Below, piece after piece: positions 2,404 through 16,450 of a stretch of DNA of 24,267 bases. Origin of the DNA: a virus. Position 1 is the first letter of the stretch. The number at the start of each line of letters is the position of its first letter. A program made the translations under genes and the position numbers. The notes under the pieces are model-generated. The model was given only the letters and a program-made list of their open reading frames with translations. It ran no database searches and was not told where the DNA came from. The stretch spans positions 1 to 24,267 of the IMG/VR virus record IMGVR_UViG_3300046001_007749, one strand, 5' to 3'.

Positions 2404-2862
2404 TTATTTCTTTTTTGCTTGATATTGACCTTCAGTAATTACACCTGCTAATTTTTGCATGTATAAGAAAGATTCATTTAATGATTCATTTGGCATTTCT
2501 TCTTCATATGTTGATTCTTCACCTAATGAAATTTCGTCAATGATTTCTTCTGGTTCTGGTGTTGCTTCTACTTTTTCAGTTTTTTTACCTTTTGAAGTAA
2601 GTTTTTCTTTTTGTTTTTGTAATTTTGTTAAACTTTTTTCTAGTGCTTTAATTTCAGAAGAAAGTTCTTTCATTTTATTTTTGTCAAACATCTTATGATA
2701 AATTTCATCGATACCTTCCATACTGATCATTTTTTTACGTTCATCAATAGCTTCTTGAGTTGCTTCCATTTTAGCTGTGTAAGCAGCCATGTCGCCTGCT
2801 TCATTAATACCATTAATGTATTCATTAATTGATTCGCGTATAAGTTGTTTTAAGTCTTTCAT
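2404..2862 (-). CDS. Coiled-coil acidic protein, candidate prohead core or internal protein
   Basis: This is a 152-aa, highly charged protein with no enzyme motif. The leader MKDLKQLIRESINE (1-14) resembles a capsid-targeting sequence, with possible protease sites at LIRE, SINE and GINE followed by AG. Residues about 55-95 have a heptad-like Lys/Glu/Leu pattern suggesting a coiled coil. An acidic stretch follows (about 100-125). The C-terminus holds YMQKLAGVITEG (134-145), with another I-x-E site, and a basic tail. The same MQKLA word opens the protein at 11183-11770. Short, coiled-coil, acidic and dotted with [LI]xE sites is what scaffolding or internal head proteins look like in T4-type phages, but there is no direct homology evidence here. 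An AT-rich promoter-like motif lies just upstream. Confidence 0.75.
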   Translation of the reverse strand: MKDLKQLIRESINEYINGINEAGDMAAYTAKMEATQEAIDERKKMISMEGIDEIYHKMFDKNKMKELSSEIKALEKSLTKLQKQKEKLTSKGKKTEKVEATPEPEEIIDEISLGEESTYEEEMPNESLNESFLYMQKLAGVITEGQYQAKKK

Positions 2863-2903: not shown

Positions 2904-4241
2904 TTACCATTTTCTGCAAGACCAATATCTTGCTTTAGTGCGTGGTCCTGGACTGTCACAGTTGTGTCTTGCTCTAAATGCTTTACGTCTTTCTGGATTG
3001 TTCTTTTTTATGTTCATTCTTTTACCTTTAGCTGATGATCCACCAAATCCAAAATTTACCTTAACTACTTTTCCTTTAGGATTTTTAACGTATACTTTAA
3101 ACTTTTTAACGTCACCTTGCATTGGTTTGCCAAGTTGTACTTTACGACCTTGATACTCTGCTTCCTGTAGTGGTTGTTTATATTCTCGCATAAACTGAAC
3201 AAATTCTTTTATGTCTTGTTCACTTTCAACATCATACTCATCTAAGTCTTCTAAACCAGTATCATCTTTTTTAAGATCTTTTTCAATTGCTTTCATTTCA
3301 CCCATAGCCCATTGTTTTTGAATAGTGGTTAATTTGTCATTGACTAAGTTTTCAATAAAGTTAATAAATTCATTTTCGCCTAACTTATACACCTCAGTAA
3401 AAAACAATTCTCTAACACGAGCATCATCAATGTTACTTTCAACATACAAATCATTTAATGCGTCATATATAAATTTACCATATTGAAGATCGCGTGGTTC
3501 ATTAGACAACTTATCTACTGCTCCTATGATTGCTTTATTTTGTTCTTTATCTTTGCCAAATCCTTGTGTTCCAACAATTTCATACAATCCTTTTACAATT
3601 TCATGAACTAACATTGGAAAACATATAGCTCTAGCTTTAACAACAAATTGATCTGCTTCTTCATCATATACCATTTCACTTTCACCACCTGCCATTTTTT
3701 GGCCTTGTTCTAAGGCAGCTAACATCATTGCAATAGCATTTTCATCATCATAAATTCCAAATACTTGTTTTAAAATTTCACCATACTTGTCTACTAAAGA
3801 ATCGTCTAAAAGATCTAAGTACTCTTTAAATAAGTAAAAAGCAAATGAGCCTCTAATTGAAGCACCTTGAGTAATACCATTTATAATACGACGTTTAGCT
3901 TTTAAAGCTTCTGGTGTATTAGCGTCTTCTACTGGTGTTTCATCTTCAGATGAAGATAAATTTATGTTGTCTTCTATTTTAGCATCAATTCTGATGTTAG
4001 CATAGTCTATAATAGGATAAGCTTGAGTGACCATATCTACAGCAATTTGAGATAAAACGTCACGATGTGGTTTTTCAGCTTCTATAATTTCGTCTAATAT
4101 TTCTTTAGAACTCATTAACGTTTGCATTAATGATTTATTGCCGAGCATTTGTTTTAAAGATTCACCTGATTTGCCTTTTAAGGCAGTCATTGTTTCTGGT
4201 TTGAATATTTTTTCATATTCAATTTCAAATAATTTTCCCAT
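2904..4241 (-). CDS. Phage protein with C-terminal RHNC/WSC basic module, possibly head-associated
   Basis: This is a 445-aa protein that I recognise only as a type common in T4-like environmental phages; its function is unknown. Residues 1-340 are helical and acidic. After PLQE at residue 360 comes a distinct basic module (361-445) starting AEYQGRK, containing KKFKVYVKNPKGKVVKV, then KKNNPERRKAFRARHNC and TKARYWSCRKW. The Cys and His residues suggest metal binding or a disulphide. LQE followed by A is a good T4 prohead-protease type site, so this tail could be released during head maturation. Its start overlaps the stop of the upstream gene (TAATG). MGKLFE at the N-terminus also has an L-x-E, but the leader is less typical than in the neighbours. 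Confidence 0.75.
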   Translation of the reverse strand: MGKLFEIEYEKIFKPETMTALKGKSGESLKQMLGNKSLMQTLMSSKEILDEIIEAEKPHRDVLSQIAVDMVTQAYPIIDYANIRIDAKIEDNINLSSSEDETPVEDANTPEALKAKRRIINGITQGASIRGSFAFYLFKEYLDLLDDSLVDKYGEILKQVFGIYDDENAIAMMLAALEQGQKMAGGESEMVYDEEADQFVVKARAICFPMLVHEIVKGLYEIVGTQGFGKDKEQNKAIIGAVDKLSNEPRDLQYGKFIYDALNDLYVESNIDDARVRELFFTEVYKLGENEFINFIENLVNDKLTTIQKQWAMGEMKAIEKDLKKDDTGLEDLDEYDVESEQDIKEFVQFMREYKQPLQEAEYQGRKVQLGKPMQGDVKKFKVYVKNPKGKVVKVNFGFGGSSAKGKRMNIKKNNPERRKAFRARHNCDSPGPRTKARYWSCRKW

Positions 4242-7052: not shown

Positions 7053-7466
7053 TTATTTTGTTAAAGGACCACCTACTACCCATGCATCACAAGTTCTTTT
7101 TGCTGCGCATTTAAACTTTAAAAATCTACAATATCCTAAATCTCCTGCTTCTATTACGTCCATTGGATTTTCACTGCCTTGATCATTACCTATTCCTTTT
7201 GCTATACAATCTATTGTTTTCTTAGTGATGTCAAAAGCGGCACAGTTACCACAACGTGAAGTTTTAGCCTCTTCTATAGAGTCAAGTTTCCACATGTCTG
7301 CCTTTGCTTGCCAAAATTTTTCATTTGGTTCGTTTGGATTTAATGGTCCATAACCATACTCATTAATTGCCTTTTGTCTGTTTTGAAGATTAAGCTCTAT
7401 ATTTTGTGTTGGAGCAGGACATTTATTTATGTCAACTTCATTCAATATGTCTATTAGTTTTATCAT
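7053..7466 (-). CDS. Cys-rich small protein with capsid-targeting-like leader
   Basis: I choose the start at 7466 (MIKLIDILNE), not the in-frame ATG at 7481, because it gives a four-base ATGA overlap with the upstream stop and matches the leader of the genes at 2381 and 16450. The 137-aa product has the leader MIKLIDILNE with an L-x-E site at residue 10. The C-terminal half holds six cysteines: CGNC (72-75), C87, C113, C120 and C126, in a pattern ending YCRFLKFKC...RTCDAWVVGGP. This spacing suggests an Fe-S or zinc site; I recall similar Cys-rich proteins in other phages, some annotated as high-potential iron-sulfur-like, but the cluster type cannot be read from sequence. Packaging into virions is inferred from the leader. 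Confidence 0.75.
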   Translation of the reverse strand: MIKLIDILNEVDINKCPAPTQNIELNLQNRQKAINEYGYGPLNPNEPNEKFWQAKADMWKLDSIEEAKTSRCGNCAAFDITKKTIDCIAKGIGNDQGSENPMDVIEAGDLGYCRFLKFKCAAKRTCDAWVVGGPLTK

Positions 7467-7921
7467 TTTGTTTTGCCCCATTTTTTACCTTTACCTTTTG
7501 TTTTACATTGAGCGGGTGTAGGACGACATGATGGATACTTAGAGCGTTTTTCGTCTTTTTTTCTACCACATGCTTTACACTTACCATCACGACAAGTGTT
7601 ACAATCTACCCATCCACCTTCTTTACCTGGTGTACCTTTACGTTTAAACCATTTATAAAGTGATTCGTCTTCTTTAATTATTTCTTTAATTATGTCTTTT
7701 AATTTAGAATATCCAGATCCATAAGGAGCCGCTTTACCTGATTGAGGATTATCGGTTTCTTTTAAATCTTTCCAAATGTTTCCTTTACGACATCTAACAA
7801 TAGCTCCTGACTTGTAAGCAGATGGTTTATCGTACTTACGATCGGCAATTCGTTTACAACGATCTGCTTTTTTCTTTTCTTCAAGGAGAATTTGTTTAAG
7901 TATATCGATTAAACTAATCAT
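7463..7921 (-). CDS. Two-module Cys/Lys-rich protein, DUF5872-like C-terminus, with tandem leaders
   Basis: This is a 152-aa basic protein built as two similar units. Each unit opens with an amphipathic leader ending in [LI]xE: MISLIDILKQILLE (1-14) and YSKLKDIIKEIIKE (71-84). Module one contains DRCKRIADRKYDKPSAYKSG and VRCRKGNIW. Module two contains WFKRKGTPGKEGGWVDC, CRDGKCKACGRK, YPSCRPTPAQCK and a Lys/Gly tail, resembling the DUF5872-type segment (WVD...PCGR...YPxCRP) found in phages and giant viruses. Nine cysteines suggest metal binding, and the high charge suggests nucleic-acid contact. If a prohead protease cuts at both leaders, two separate small basic proteins would result. It overlaps both neighbours (TAATG upstream, ATGA downstream). 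Function is unknown. Confidence 0.8.
   Translation of the reverse strand: MISLIDILKQILLEEKKKADRCKRIADRKYDKPSAYKSGAIVRCRKGNIWKDLKETDNPQSGKAAPYGSGYSKLKDIIKEIIKEDESLYKWFKRKGTPGKEGGWVDCNTCRDGKCKACGRKKDEKRSKYPSCRPTPAQCKTKGKGKKWGKTK
7670..7711 (-). other. Internal copy of the capsid-targeting-like leader
   Basis: Codons 71-84 of the 152-aa gene encode YSKLKDIIKEIIKE, which has the same hydrophobic spacing and [LI]xE ending as the N-terminal leaders in this block. It precedes the second Cys-rich module and has no Met, so it is not an alternative start. It may be a relic of gene fusion or a processing site. Confidence 0.5.
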
Positions 7922-8883
7922 TATACTCCTACGTTTATCATTTGGGGATTGTCAACTCTAAACTTAACTACTCCTCTTATGTTGTTAATGTCTTGTATAA
8001 CTTTTTTCACAGTTTCTATGTCAAATTTACCATCTTTTAAATATGGATAAGGATCAATTTTTACTGCTAATTTATTGTATGAATAGCTTTTATTAGGTAT
8101 GCGTGGTGTGTACTCATGAGCGTCCACTGTTGTAATGCCTGTTACAGATCTAATGTCTGACAGTACTTCTTTTTGAAATAAAAGATCATTGTTAGTTACT
8201 AACAGTCCTTCAACTTTATAAAGTTTTTCAGCAGAATTTTCACTTAATATTCTTTTGATTTTGCCCTTATTTATAACATATTTGTAAGATTCATTAAGAC
8301 CTAGTAAATATTCATAGTCATAGTACACACCATAGTCTCTTAAAACTTTTCTTAATTCTTCAGCGTCTTTATCAATTACTGCTAATGCAGCGTCTTGGAA
8401 TATAGGTGAATCTTCTCCATGATCTTCTTTAATTTTCTTTAAAAGATTATGAAAGGGTACTGCTGAATTTTTTGATGTTACTGAAATGTCTCTTTTTGAT
8501 CCCATTTCATTTTCAAATAATTGCAAGTCTAATGGTACTTTTTTACCCTTATACATTCCATGTTCACCTAAATTACTTTCAACTAGTACTTTTTTATCTG
8601 CTTCATTTACATGAATAGCTTCACGTGAGTACAAATAACGAGCTTCAGCCCATAAGTTTAAAAATGCTGGTGAACCATATGGAAGTCGACTCTCAATAAG
8701 CGATAACTTGTTGTCAACATGATACTTCATATCCTTTGACATTACTATGCGAGCGTTTAGATTCTCGTTGATTACCGGTCCTTTATTGCCAACATTCTCA
8801 CAAGAGTGACAACCACAGTTGCATGAGTCTTTTTTAGGTGGAGTAGATAATATTTCTCTTATAAGTTTTGTTATACGGTTCAT
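7921..8883 (-). CDS. Phage protein with N-terminal Cys cluster after a leader
   Basis: This is a 320-aa protein. MNRITKLIRE (1-10) is a short amphipathic leader ending in I-x-E. Soon after comes a dense cluster, CNCGCHSC (21-28), likely to bind metal. Residues about 45-125 (MSKDMKYHVDNKLSLIESR, the GSPAFLNLWAEARYLY region and EHGMYKGKKVPLDL) and the C-terminal part (about 215-315, with VEGLLVTNNDLL, SDIRSVTGITTVDA and LAVKIDPYPYLKDG) form two segments I recognise as recurrent in environmental phages but cannot assign to a function. The C-terminal segment alternates strands and helices like a small ferredoxin-like fold; that is a guess. The stop overlaps the next start (TAATG). A 14-base gap carrying the AT motif lies upstream. 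Confidence 0.75.
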   Translation of the reverse strand: MNRITKLIREILSTPPKKDSCNCGCHSCENVGNKGPVINENLNARIVMSKDMKYHVDNKLSLIESRLPYGSPAFLNLWAEARYLYSREAIHVNEADKKVLVESNLGEHGMYKGKKVPLDLQLFENEMGSKRDISVTSKNSAVPFHNLLKKIKEDHGEDSPIFQDAALAVIDKDAEELRKVLRDYGVYYDYEYLLGLNESYKYVINKGKIKRILSENSAEKLYKVEGLLVTNNDLLFQKEVLSDIRSVTGITTVDAHEYTPRIPNKSYSYNKLAVKIDPYPYLKDGKFDIETVKKVIQDINNIRGVVKFRVDNPQMINVGV

Positions 8884-12999: not shown

Positions 13000-13752
13000 T
13001 TATTTTATATTATCATTTAAAAAATAGAAAAAATTGGATTTAGTAGCAAATCTTTTACCTATTTCAGGTACTTCATTTTTTAATATATCATAAATTTGGA
13101 ATGACATTTTTGGATCTATGTTAAAGAGCTTATCTTCGTTTAATTTACTTTCATCTTCTTTGTCTATTGTTTCTAATGAATAATCTTTACTTGAAATAGC
13201 TTTTGCTTCTTGTGCGGCCTTTAAAATCTTATCGATATCTTTTTTATCTGATGTGTTAAATGTTAAAGTAGAATCGTCTACTTTTTTAGGTTTTATGTAT
13301 GTTTTAGGTTTTACATTTAAATAAGCTACCACTAAGTCTTGATGTTTTTTATTTTTAATAGGAAAAGCAAATATTGTTTTGTTACTTTTATCTTTTTTAA
13401 TTATAAAATCTTTTCTTTCAAATCTATCTTTAACTGAGTTTTCTATTTCATTGTATAACTTAATACCATTCTCATCATAAATTGTCTTATTTGTATTAAT
13501 AAACTTATCACTAGTTGGCTTATCACCAAATACTTTTCTTTCGAAATCTTTTAAATTGTCTGATTTATTAATAAAAGCATCACTAAAATACTTTGGGTCT
13601 TCTAATATTCTTATAATATCATCAGCAGTTACATTTCCATGAGTAGTTAATTTTAACTCTTTAGGAATGTCCATTCTTCGCAATCCACTTTCTTCTCCTC
13701 CACCATTAGTGGTAGGTTCTTCATTTTCTACTAATTTGTACTTGTATTTCAT
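13000..13752 (-). CDS. Charged phage protein of unknown function
   Basis: I place the start at 13752 (MKYKYKLVENEEP), giving the TAATG one-base overlap typical of this block. A longer in-frame opening from 13833 would add 27 basic residues read from inside the upstream gene and is less likely. The 250-aa product is Lys/Asp-rich. Segments visible are GGGEESGLRRMDIPKELKL (about 18-36), TADDIIRILEDPKYFSDAF, a KTIFAFPIKNKKHQDLVVAYLNV strand region (about 135-157), SLETIDKEDESKL and a C-terminal helical EVPEIGKRFATKSNFFYFL. No enzyme motif is evident. The early KLVEN contains an L-x-E, but the leader is short and not clearly amphipathic. Confidence 0.65.
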   Translation of the reverse strand: MKYKYKLVENEEPTTNGGGEESGLRRMDIPKELKLTTHGNVTADDIIRILEDPKYFSDAFINKSDNLKDFERKVFGDKPTSDKFINTNKTIYDENGIKLYNEIENSVKDRFERKDFIIKKDKSNKTIFAFPIKNKKHQDLVVAYLNVKPKTYIKPKKVDDSTLTFNTSDKKDIDKILKAAQEAKAISSKDYSLETIDKEDESKLNEDKLFNIDPKMSFQIYDILKNEVPEIGKRFATKSNFFYFLNDNIK

Positions 13753-14282
13753 TATAGTCCTAGTGATTTTAATTCGTTTAATGTATTTTCTGTTGAAGTA
13801 TGTAATATACCTATGCCACCTCTTGAATTCCATTCATTGATAGTGTTAGGCATGTCGTCGATAAGTATTCGATTTTTCTTGGAATAATTTTGTTTGTTTT
13901 TTCTTTCTGCTAATATTAATTTAGTTCCAGGTATATTTTTCTTAACCCATAAACTTTTTCCATATCGTGATGATGAATCTTGTGATGGTGCAGATAGTAA
14001 TGATGGTTTATACTTACTAATGTATGTCCATAGTTGTTTACCGTCTGACATCCAAGGCATTTCTGACCAAAACTGTGCACCTATGCCATCTATTAACTCC
14101 CAAAATTTCTTAGTACCATTTTTAACTTCATATTCACTAGGCAACATTCCACCAAACTGTTCAAAACGTCTGTCAAAGTCACACAATACTCCATCCATAT
14201 CACAATATATTGTATATTGTGAAATTTGAGCTGCTTGTGCTTCTTCTTTAAGTTGTTTGTATAGGTCTGTTAATTTGTACAT
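13752..14282 (-). CDS. HAD-superfamily nucleotidase/phosphatase with capsid-targeting-like leader
   Basis: This is a 176-aa protein. YCDMDGVLCDFD (26-37) is HAD motif I (DxD: nucleophile D28 and acid/base D30). LLSAPS (about 95-100) fits motif II. A Lys/Arg-rich LAERKNKQNYSKKN is followed by ILIDDMPNTINEW with the motif IV acidic pair. The set fits the small 5'(3')-deoxyribonucleotidase-like group found in phages, which removes phosphate from nucleotides; substrate and activity are inferred. The first 19 residues, MYKLTDLYKQLKEEAQAAQ, are an extension before the HAD core, with an L-x-E site at residue 13 and an Ala-rich spacer, in the style of the other leaders here. The ATG follows the upstream stop directly (TAGATG). 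Confidence 0.85.
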   Translation of the reverse strand: MYKLTDLYKQLKEEAQAAQISQYTIYCDMDGVLCDFDRRFEQFGGMLPSEYEVKNGTKKFWELIDGIGAQFWSEMPWMSDGKQLWTYISKYKPSLLSAPSQDSSSRYGKSLWVKKNIPGTKLILAERKNKQNYSKKNRILIDDMPNTINEWNSRGGIGILHTSTENTLNELKSLGL

Positions 14283-15485
14283 CTAAAATTCTGATTCTCC
14301 AGATTGAACTTTTTTTAATACAACAAATGAACCATTAATATTTCTATTTTCACTATCTTTTGTTATAAAATTTACTTTAGCATCTTTTCTAGAATATCCT
14401 GGTAATTTATTTGTTTTAGTTAAATCATTATAAACATTTCCATATCCGCTACCTTCTATATTTGATATTCCTATATAATTAGGTTTTTCTTTTGAAACAA
14501 AATCTAATATAATCTTATACATAGTAGATAATATTTTTATATAATTTTTACCTCCTGCTTTTCCAGTTTGAAGATTTGAATTTTTATTTCCTATTTCATC
14601 AAAATTTATATTATAAAAATCACCATCTTTATAAGGATTTGGAAATTTTGAAATTGAATAAGTATAACCTAAATCACCTACCTTAAATTTTCCACTAAAT
14701 ACATCACCCTCTATTTCAGCAGCATTATTAGGATTAAGTAATATCTCATTTATTTTTAATTTATACAATTGAGTTACTAAATCTGTTGTTAATAATGCTG
14801 GTGGGTTAAATTTAGGTAAATCGGATTCTATAATCCATTCATTTAATGGTTTAGGATTTTTAATTGAATCTTCCCAATTTCTGAATGTAATATTTCCTTT
14901 TAAATATGCTTCTTCTTCTAATTCTTCTAAACTGTCATCTTCGTTTGTGTTGGTAGTGTTGATGTTATTTAATCTACCTTCATTATCTTGCATACGATGA
15001 ATCATCTCATGAGCATATGAACGTAAAATGTCTTTTGGATGTCTGTTTAATGTAAATAAAGTGATTGAACAGTTGTTTGGATTGTAATGTGCCGTTTTAC
15101 CTAAAATATTTTCAGCGTTTTTAGAGTCGTTGCTTATACTTATTATACGTGGTAAGGGTTTGATGTTCATACCTTGATCAATCATATACTTAGTTAAAGA
15201 TTTTAACGCTTCTTTAAAGGTTGATGGTGTGTTTAATGATTCTTTTATTGAATTTTTTGGATTTAAAAAATATTCATTGTAAAAATATTCTAAGGCTTCT
15301 AATTTTTCTCCAGTTAACTTATTTTTTAAATAAATGTATACTCTTTCATGATCTGAGTCTTTTTTTAAAGCATCAAAAACATCTGAGTGTAAAGCCCAAT
15401 ATTTAATTTCTGAGGGTTGTAATTCGTTTATATCTTCATTCTCTAATAAAAGTGAAGTTATAAGATATTTAGTTAAATCATTCAT
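14283..15485 (-). CDS. HExxH metalloprotease fused to C-terminal acetyltransferase-like domain, with leader
   Basis: This is a 400-aa protein. MNDLTKYLITSLLLE (1-15) is an amphipathic leader ending in L-x-E. The central domain carries SYAHEMIHRMQDNEGRL, with H159-E160-x2-H163 as the zinc site, and downstream acidic residues (EELEEEAYLKGNITFRNW, E187-E192) that could supply the third ligand. This is the zincin-type metalloprotease pattern. The C-terminal 150 residues (from about IEGDVFSGKF) contain VGDLGYTYSISKF, GKAGGKNYIKILSTMYKIILDFV and PNYIGISNIEGSGYGNVYNDL, an order reminiscent of GNAT-like or related alpha/beta domains in phages; that part is uncertain. It overlaps the upstream stop (TAATG). 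The protease could act on host proteins after entry or on virion proteins; the sequence does not say. Confidence 0.8.
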   Translation of the reverse strand: MNDLTKYLITSLLLENEDINELQPSEIKYWALHSDVFDALKKDSDHERVYIYLKNKLTGEKLEALEYFYNEYFLNPKNSIKESLNTPSTFKEALKSLTKYMIDQGMNIKPLPRIISISNDSKNAENILGKTAHYNPNNCSITLFTLNRHPKDILRSYAHEMIHRMQDNEGRLNNINTTNTNEDDSLEELEEEAYLKGNITFRNWEDSIKNPKPLNEWIIESDLPKFNPPALLTTDLVTQLYKLKINEILLNPNNAAEIEGDVFSGKFKVGDLGYTYSISKFPNPYKDGDFYNINFDEIGNKNSNLQTGKAGGKNYIKILSTMYKIILDFVSKEKPNYIGISNIEGSGYGNVYNDLTKTNKLPGYSRKDAKVNFITKDSENRNINGSFVVLKKVQSGESEF

Positions 15486-16450
15486 TATGTTGCGAATTCT
15501 TTAATTTTTTCTACTGCTTGATCAACTGTAACTTCACTTCTAACTACATCTTTGAATGTATCAAATAATGCTTGATACATTTGATCTTCTTCCTCTTTAG
15601 ATTTTAGGAATGCTTTTTGAATTGAGTCTAAGTGTTCTTTAAAACCATTGGACCTACCTTGTTTATTCATAGGCATAAAATTATTATTTTTAACATAATA
15701 TTCTAATGCTTTTTCTTTAAGTTTTCTTTCTTCATAACTATTTAAAGTGCCTAATTGTTTAGCTTTTTCATTAAAATCAGCTTCTACTTCTTGAGGTAAA
15801 GATGTAGGTTCTTTCTTTTGTGTGACTGTGTAAAAATCTGGATTGTTTTTAGTTTCAGTATTTATAAATTGCTTGATTGCTTCTGGACTTTCTTGTGCTG
15901 CTTTATTAAAACCATCAATTATATTTTGATCAACATCTGGAGTATTGTTTACTAAAATAAAATTATTACCAAATGCTTCTTGATATGTTTTGATTAATTC
16001 AGGACTGTATGATTTAATCCATGTTAATAATACTGCTTTACCAAAAAGACTTTCTTCACCTTCTTCTTTAGCTCGTTTAAAGTTTTGATAATATGCTACC
16101 ATTGGATGAGCATATATCATAACCATTAATGTGTCATATCCTGATGCTTTAACTCTTAATACACTGGTTGGATTATTAGCGGTAGTGTCCCAAATAATGT
16201 TAGATTTATTTTCTTGTGATATTTCCGCGTCTAATTCTTTTTCAGTTGCAATAGATGAACCACGAAGATTTTTATATAATTCTGAGTCTTTATTTCTGGC
16301 AAATTTATCTGGATTAAAATACTTCCACTCTTTTGTAAAATCTTTAATTTTATTATAGAAAAATGTTTTTCCAGAACCCGCACTCCCCGCCATAATTATG
16401 GCTTTTGGATTGTCAACTATTTCTTTTAAGAGATGTATAAGCTTTATCAT
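15485..16450 (-). CDS. P-loop kinase (zeta-toxin-like) with capsid-targeting-like leader
   Basis: This is a 321-aa protein. After the leader MIKLIHLLKE (L-x-E at residue 10) and a short IVDNPKAIIMA strand comes a Walker A motif, GSAGSGKT (22-29). YFNPDKF follows (D48), with an NIIWDTTANN strand (about 84-93) and a lid-like QNFKRAKEEGEESLFG. N-P-D after the P-loop and the overall order resemble zeta-toxin-type nucleotide kinases, which phosphorylate small molecules such as UDP-sugars; other phage P-loop kinases look similar, so the substrate is open. The last 150 residues are helical and charged with no known motif. It follows a 69-base gap that holds a hairpin and an AT motif, so it probably heads the long cargo operon running left to about 11801. 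Confidence 0.8.
   Translation of the reverse strand: MIKLIHLLKEIVDNPKAIIMAGSAGSGKTFFYNKIKDFTKEWKYFNPDKFARNKDSELYKNLRGSSIATEKELDAEISQENKSNIIWDTTANNPTSVLRVKASGYDTLMVMIYAHPMVAYYQNFKRAKEEGEESLFGKAVLLTWIKSYSPELIKTYQEAFGNNFILVNNTPDVDQNIIDGFNKAAQESPEAIKQFINTETKNNPDFYTVTQKKEPTSLPQEVEADFNEKAKQLGTLNSYEERKLKEKALEYYVKNNNFMPMNKQGRSNGFKEHLDSIQKAFLKSKEEEDQMYQALFDTFKDVVRSEVTVDQAVEKIKEFAT

Follow-up and report, generated by a model that had tools for sequence, protein, structure and literature searches.

A phage gene with two leader-like segments as a probable modular head polyprotein with predicted prohead-protease sites

How should a small phage protein be read when a leader resembling a capsid-targeting sequence is found both at its N-terminus and in its interior? 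The question is raised by a 152-residue open reading frame of a Flavobacterium-type T4-like phage, at 7463-7921 of the 24,267-bp viral record IMGVR_UViG_3300046001_007749, the whole of which is referred to here as the window. The frame lies on the minus strand, and the plus-strand translation of the same interval is full of stops. An earlier note on this DNA had located leader patterns at residues 1-14 (MISLIDILKQILLE) and 71-84 (YSKLKDIIKEIIKE), and both sequences and positions hold, the second being the best-ranked internal segment in the scoring described below. Comparison with relatives, which are designated here by labels such as L015, makes it probable that the gene encodes a modular phage-head polyprotein cut by the prohead protease.

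The protein can be divided into a leader, a module (A), a linker with a second leader, and another module (C), all of whose coordinates refer to the minus strand. Leader 1 (residues 1-14; 7880..7921) resembles a capsid-targeting sequence and has a predicted cut after LLE14, whose P1 glutamate is nearly invariant (at least 90% conservation in 52 homologues). Module A (residues 15-55; 7757..7879) is basic, has two cysteines and ends in IWKDLKE, with a predicted cut after LKE55; this LKE, at residues 53-55, is a third [LI]xE besides LLE14 and IKE84 that the earlier note overlooked. Then comes a linker cassette of 29 codons (residues 56-84, TDNPQSGKAAPYGSGYSKLKDIIKEIIKE; 7670..7756), which includes leader 2 (residues 71-84; 7670..7711) with its predicted cut after IKE84. 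Module C (residues 85-152; 7466..7669, with the stop codon at 7463-7465) is basic and has six cysteines. If the protein is cut after E14, E55 and E84, its products would include module A, with 41 residues and a pI of 10.0, and module C, with 68 residues and a pI of 9.9, and a 29-residue linker-leader would separate them. Among the same 52 homologues, the invariant residues are D20, R21, C22, S34-Y36, C44 and W50 in module A, and W91, F92, G103, W104, D106, C107, C118, C132 and C139 in module C. The basic character and the cysteines of the modules suggest that they may bind nucleic acids or metals.

The resemblance between the two leaders was measured with a position-specific scoring matrix of 14 columns, derived from the distinct N-terminal leaders of the relatives, that of the query not being included. 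Over 7,455 segments from the 27 proteins of the window, residues 71-84 score 16.2 bits and are outscored only by five true N-termini, among them residues 1-14 with 33.1 bits; the next internal segment scores 6.8. The matching segment of the nearest isolate's homologue (gp084 of phage immuto) ranks second of 32,865 internal segments, and a leader-like segment ending exactly two residues ahead of the SL of module C is found in 42 of 158 homologues. An AlphaFold model of the 152-residue protein, of low confidence (mean pLDDT 61, pTM 0.34), places helices at residues 4-18 (leader 1) and 70-82 (leader 2) and a helical pair in module A (pLDDT about 80), and leaves residues 57-72 and most of the linker disordered (pLDDT 40 at 61-70). 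The model is in keeping with independent units, yet its confidence is too low for any conclusion to rest on it, and a search of the PDB by sequence and by fold gave no match to the protein.

It is known that the prohead protease of T4, gp21, cleaves after L/I-X-E, and that the first ten residues of the internal protein IPIII are enough for targeting to the head (PMC9026906). Both leaders terminate in this motif. [LI]xE is a weak motif, frequent by chance, and the argument made from it here, which is drawn from sequence comparison, depends on its position. In a set of 158 distinct proteins with module C, taken from public viral contigs and immuto, [LI]xE occurs in every case (158/158) among the nine residues preceding the module, compared with a background of 10.4% per nine-residue stretch elsewhere in the same proteins. 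The sequences upstream of module C fall into 22 context clusters (one being a truncated contig end), so that the conserved motif is not one inherited stretch, and it is present with both spacings observed at this junction, in which the glutamate is followed by DESL or by KxKETL. Directly after module A, [LIV]xE is found in 151 of 154 copies, which is to say in all 151 copies that are fused to further protein. The three copies that do not have it stop at that point, after IWKGIK, IWKNLK and IWKDLK, and a fourth stand-alone gene (L328) stops exactly after IWKGIKE. Since the motif is present in all fused copies and three of the four stand-alone A genes have no glutamate, this residue appears to be kept where protein follows and to be dispensable elsewhere.

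The genomic setting of the relatives provides a protease of the right family. The 152-residue protein has 301 relatives on viral contigs; among isolates, the closest is the cultured Flavobacterium phage vB_FspM_immuto (Immutovirus, 160 kb), whose gp084 is 71.5% identical over 80% of the query. This gene lies close to the head genes; the region around it is bordered by DNA primase and exonuclease genes and, at its other end, by those for terminase, portal (gp20), prohead protease and gp23. The prohead protease of immuto, gp070, is of the Peptidase_S77 type and belongs to the T4 gp21 family (E 8.9e-35). The S77 protease is present in 11 of 12 long viral contigs carrying relatives, as is gp23, and the twelfth, which may be incomplete, has neither. 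Within the 24-kb fragment itself no protease or capsid gene was recognised, and both are known from relatives alone. The gp23 propeptides of L178, L180, L182, L183, L186 and L187 contain several glutamate sites (LLE, LLE/ILE, QLVxE), and their likely maturation site is VxE and not a strict L/I-X-E, a point against the polyprotein reading. A host origin for the gene is unlikely, given that bacterial and archaeal genomes, one for each of 84,980 species, contained no relative. PHROGs gave just one weak match, to module C, and the weak Pfam matches to the protein or to the cargo of its relatives (NleE, Pox_A3L, Argonaute N and others) were below cut-offs and were set aside.

The two modules also exist as separate genes, which is what the earlier note had proposed to look for. 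In L096, L124 and L328, two adjacent genes, with start and stop codons that overlap or touch, encode A and C, and each has its own leader (in L096, for example, MDNLKNLVKEILAE and MIKLTDIILEMIKE). The separation takes a weaker form in L351, where A and cargo share one gene and C, with its own leader, is the next, and in L147, where A and C are in different genes. A distant relative, Roseobacter phage CRP-901 (L356), has no S77 protease, and its A, C and a further module, D (described below), occupy three reading frames side by side, all free of leaders and cut sites. This phage may be regarded as a natural control, to be read as a single phage in which a frameshift error is possible. Its module C frame (2441-2728) is small and unannotated, probably starts with GTG and lies between annotated genes. 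Units that share one reading frame in the window gene are, then, separable, as L096, L124, L328, L351, L147 and CRP-901 show. The rule that would have spoken against a polyprotein, namely that homologues always carry both modules around a non-conserved middle, does not describe these relatives: the modules come apart, and the middle varies while its [LI]xE edges are conserved in 158 of 158. In another group of relatives (L326, L337, L344 and L346) the same module A is found with C swapped for a different module, C' (SLRDWFKKEKWVRI...CGTMKKGKATTRCLPK).

What lies between A and C varies. In L015, the closest relative in a tree of A and C (95% identical over 97 columns), the whole linker is missing, and IWKDLKE is directly followed by DESL; at the nucleotide level, the two genes differ by a clean in-frame indel of 29 codons flanked by AAAGAA repeats that code for the Lys-Glu of the site. 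Other relatives have 95-456 residues between the modules, of 18 distinct types, which include ParB-like, ADP-ribosyltransferase (ART)-like and unassigned cargo, sometimes several in tandem. The matches to ddrB-ParB (0.0011) and Tox-ART-HYD1 (0.0061) are below the Pfam cut-off and are hints only, that of ParB being backed by DGNHR, DGHHR and DGIHR motifs visible in the cargo. Several strings combine units known from elsewhere: L333 has an ART-like unit, then one found alone in L118, then one resembling that of L154; L145 has a ParB-like unit followed by one that stands alone in L100; and L094 joins units that L267, L085 and L112 carry singly. Cassettes of the L118, L100 and L085 types thus reappear within longer strings. 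With all partial alignments counted, 38 of 59 ends of cassette alignments fall ten residues or less from an [LI]xE, where background positions do so in 12.9% of cases; many of the 21 ends without the motif are partial alignments, and the true exceptions to the strict motif at the ends of strong matches are NSE in L094 and MKE in L203. The tree of A and C, which has few columns and was used only for minimum counts of change on strongly supported branches, shows the four classes of junction (direct, linker, cargo and split) in scattered positions. These branches alone require at least 12 changes for the linker and at least 11 for cargo.

Taken together, these observations can be arranged into a mechanism in which targeting to the head, cutting, retention with DNA and entry into the host are inferred. 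The N-terminal amphipathic leader would act like the capsid-targeting sequence of T4 and take the precursor into the prohead core. At head maturation the S77 protease would cut after [LI]xE at E14, E55 and E84, sites that conservation supports, and free leader 1, module A and module C, the latter two as small, basic, cysteine-containing proteins; the linker-leader would be discarded or left. The junction of A and C would be a point of exchange, which by comparison may hold nothing, the present linker, a single cargo domain or a series of them with sites at most of the boundaries, or a division into two genes. To judge from the leader, the charge and the types of cargo, the freed modules may remain associated with the DNA inside the head and may be carried into the host along with it, as the internal proteins of T4 are. 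The polyprotein split by the prohead protease that had been suggested for this gene is supported by the comparison and by the fact that relatives encode a protease of the right family; the description of it as carrying two cargoes was too narrow, because A and C have the appearance of common modules between which other cargo is inserted in other phages. The arrangement may have arisen by fusion or by fission; the Pfam model DUF5872 already has A followed by a C-like part.

That same model is one reason to consider that only the N-terminal leader is removed and that A and C stay together as one DUF5872-like protein, with leader 2 as a remnant of gene fusion or a helical spacer. Pfam treats A plus the C-like part as a single unit, the junction is very short in many relatives, as in L015, and targeting helices in the interior of a protein need not be cut. 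Such a protein, however, would not be expected to keep the P1 glutamate of the junction in 158 of 158 cases despite varying neighbours and spacing, to lose exactly that glutamate in three of four stand-alone A genes, to tolerate cargo of up to 456 residues at the junction, or to have its modules in a different order in cyanophages, and we consider this reading unlikely. It is quite improbable, too, that the leaders and [LI]xE serve some other process, such as protein interaction through a helix whose acidic cap is conserved, or delivery to a place other than the head, with the prohead protease uninvolved. The link between motif and protease in these phages rests on sequence, and enzymes in the window also have leader-like N-termini, which leaves room for such a role; but the motif matches the published L/I-X-E of gp21 and co-occurs with the S77 protease, leader and site are both missing in the phage without S77, and the weak cargo matches to ddrB-ParB and Tox-ART belong to classes known from head-packaged polyvalent proteins. 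A chance resemblance within one variable linker, with no functional meaning, would agree with the absence of that linker from the closest relative, L015; it is already contradicted by the rank of leader 2 as the best of about 7,400 internal segments, by its recurrence in 42 of 158 homologues and by the conservation of the sites, and can hardly be credited.

The head polyprotein that we favour is made of known parts in a new arrangement. The internal proteins of T4 (IPI, IPII, IPIII and Alt) share with it a short leader at the N-terminus that closes with [LI]xE (here LLE14), the nature of small proteins or effectors, and an S77 protease in the phage (here in relatives, as immuto gp070 and in 11 of 12 contigs). 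They differ in that, in the reviewed account, each T4 gene gives one mature product (Alt being trimmed at both ends), whereas here several units bounded by [LI]xE occupy one reading frame and are exchanged between phages; the likeness considered here is one of layout. For multiple sites of the gp21 type within a single head protein there are precedents in the T4 core proteins gp22, gp67 and gp68 (PMC9026906), which unlike the present protein are scaffold or core components whose fragments are mostly lost, where conserved modules and cargo domains are found here; the propeptides of SPN3US are a further precedent for several cuts per protein (PMC10052503). The nearest concept for the mixed cargo is that of the polyvalent proteins, in which a number of domains of unrelated kinds, ParB-like and ART domains among them, are joined in one head-associated polypeptide, and whose authors drew the analogy with polyproteins (Iyer et al. 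2017, PMC5512222). These are usually large and embedded peptidases are invoked for them (PMC5512222), whereas the sites described here match a separate prohead protease, and neither the window protein nor the nine cargo segments that were scanned gave a credible peptidase match. DUF5872 (PF19197) is matched by module A and the C' variant (L337 type, E 1.2e-07; window protein, E 1.5e-04); the window protein, with 22.8 bits, is under the cut-off of 27.5, and the L337-type relative with A and C' reaches 32.7. The sources searched describe no function, leader or cleavage site for this family.

T4-like cyanophages that have the S77 protease encode related proteins, of the T4-GC119 type (P-SSM2_123 and the S-B68 'structural protein') and syn9 gp114, which contain module A and a C-like module and which some records annotate as structural. 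They differ from the window protein in the order of the modules, in their N-termini and in having less regular sites, the evidence for which is weaker. The P-SSM2 and syn9 relatives adjoin genes for the tail-sheath stabilizer and the small subunit of terminase.

A more general proposal can be made tentatively, with slightly less than even confidence. T4-like phages of aquatic Bacteroidetes may possess a general cassette system in which conserved small modules and interchangeable cargo are combined within one gene, with a site for the prohead protease at the end of every unit. From such a gene, and with a single leader, a defined group of separate proteins would reach the head, and phages would trade cargo by recombining at the short site-encoding repeats. 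Among the open-access papers searched, none was found that describes the arrangement seen here or that gives cleavage, virion-proteome or packaging data for these phages, immuto included. If the proposal is true, a short motif beside a conserved module would flag head-delivered cargo in many uncultured phage genomes, and candidate injected anti-host proteins could be listed from their sequences. It would also place among tailed phages a strategy familiar mainly from RNA viruses, namely the production of polyproteins, which here the capsid protease would cut in trans.

Leader-like N-termini are present on further proteins of the window, all on the minus strand: a P-loop kinase-like protein (15485-16450), a deoxyribonucleotidase-like protein (13752-14282), a protein with a weak phosphoribosyltransferase match (1371-2381) and a small cysteine-containing protein (7053-7481), a hint that head targeting may extend to many proteins of this phage. 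The N-terminal sequence of the adjacent gene at 7921-8883 (minus strand) places it in a second family built on the same plan, that is, an N-terminal module (CNCGC/INENL/VPLDLP), a variable middle and the C-terminal module D (phrog_7595, YVYVKDPKTKKIKKVSFG...YWSC). In this family [LIV]xE lies upstream of D at 51 of 59 distinct junctions. The member at 7921-8883 has no module D, and another member, at 2904-4241 (minus strand), has a D-like module at its end, after LQE. A peptide, MQKLAGxITE (or QKLAGII), recurs at the end or the start of otherwise unlike proteins, namely at the C-terminus of the product of 2404-2862 (minus strand) and in immuto gp083 and gp067, and is perhaps another shared processed module.
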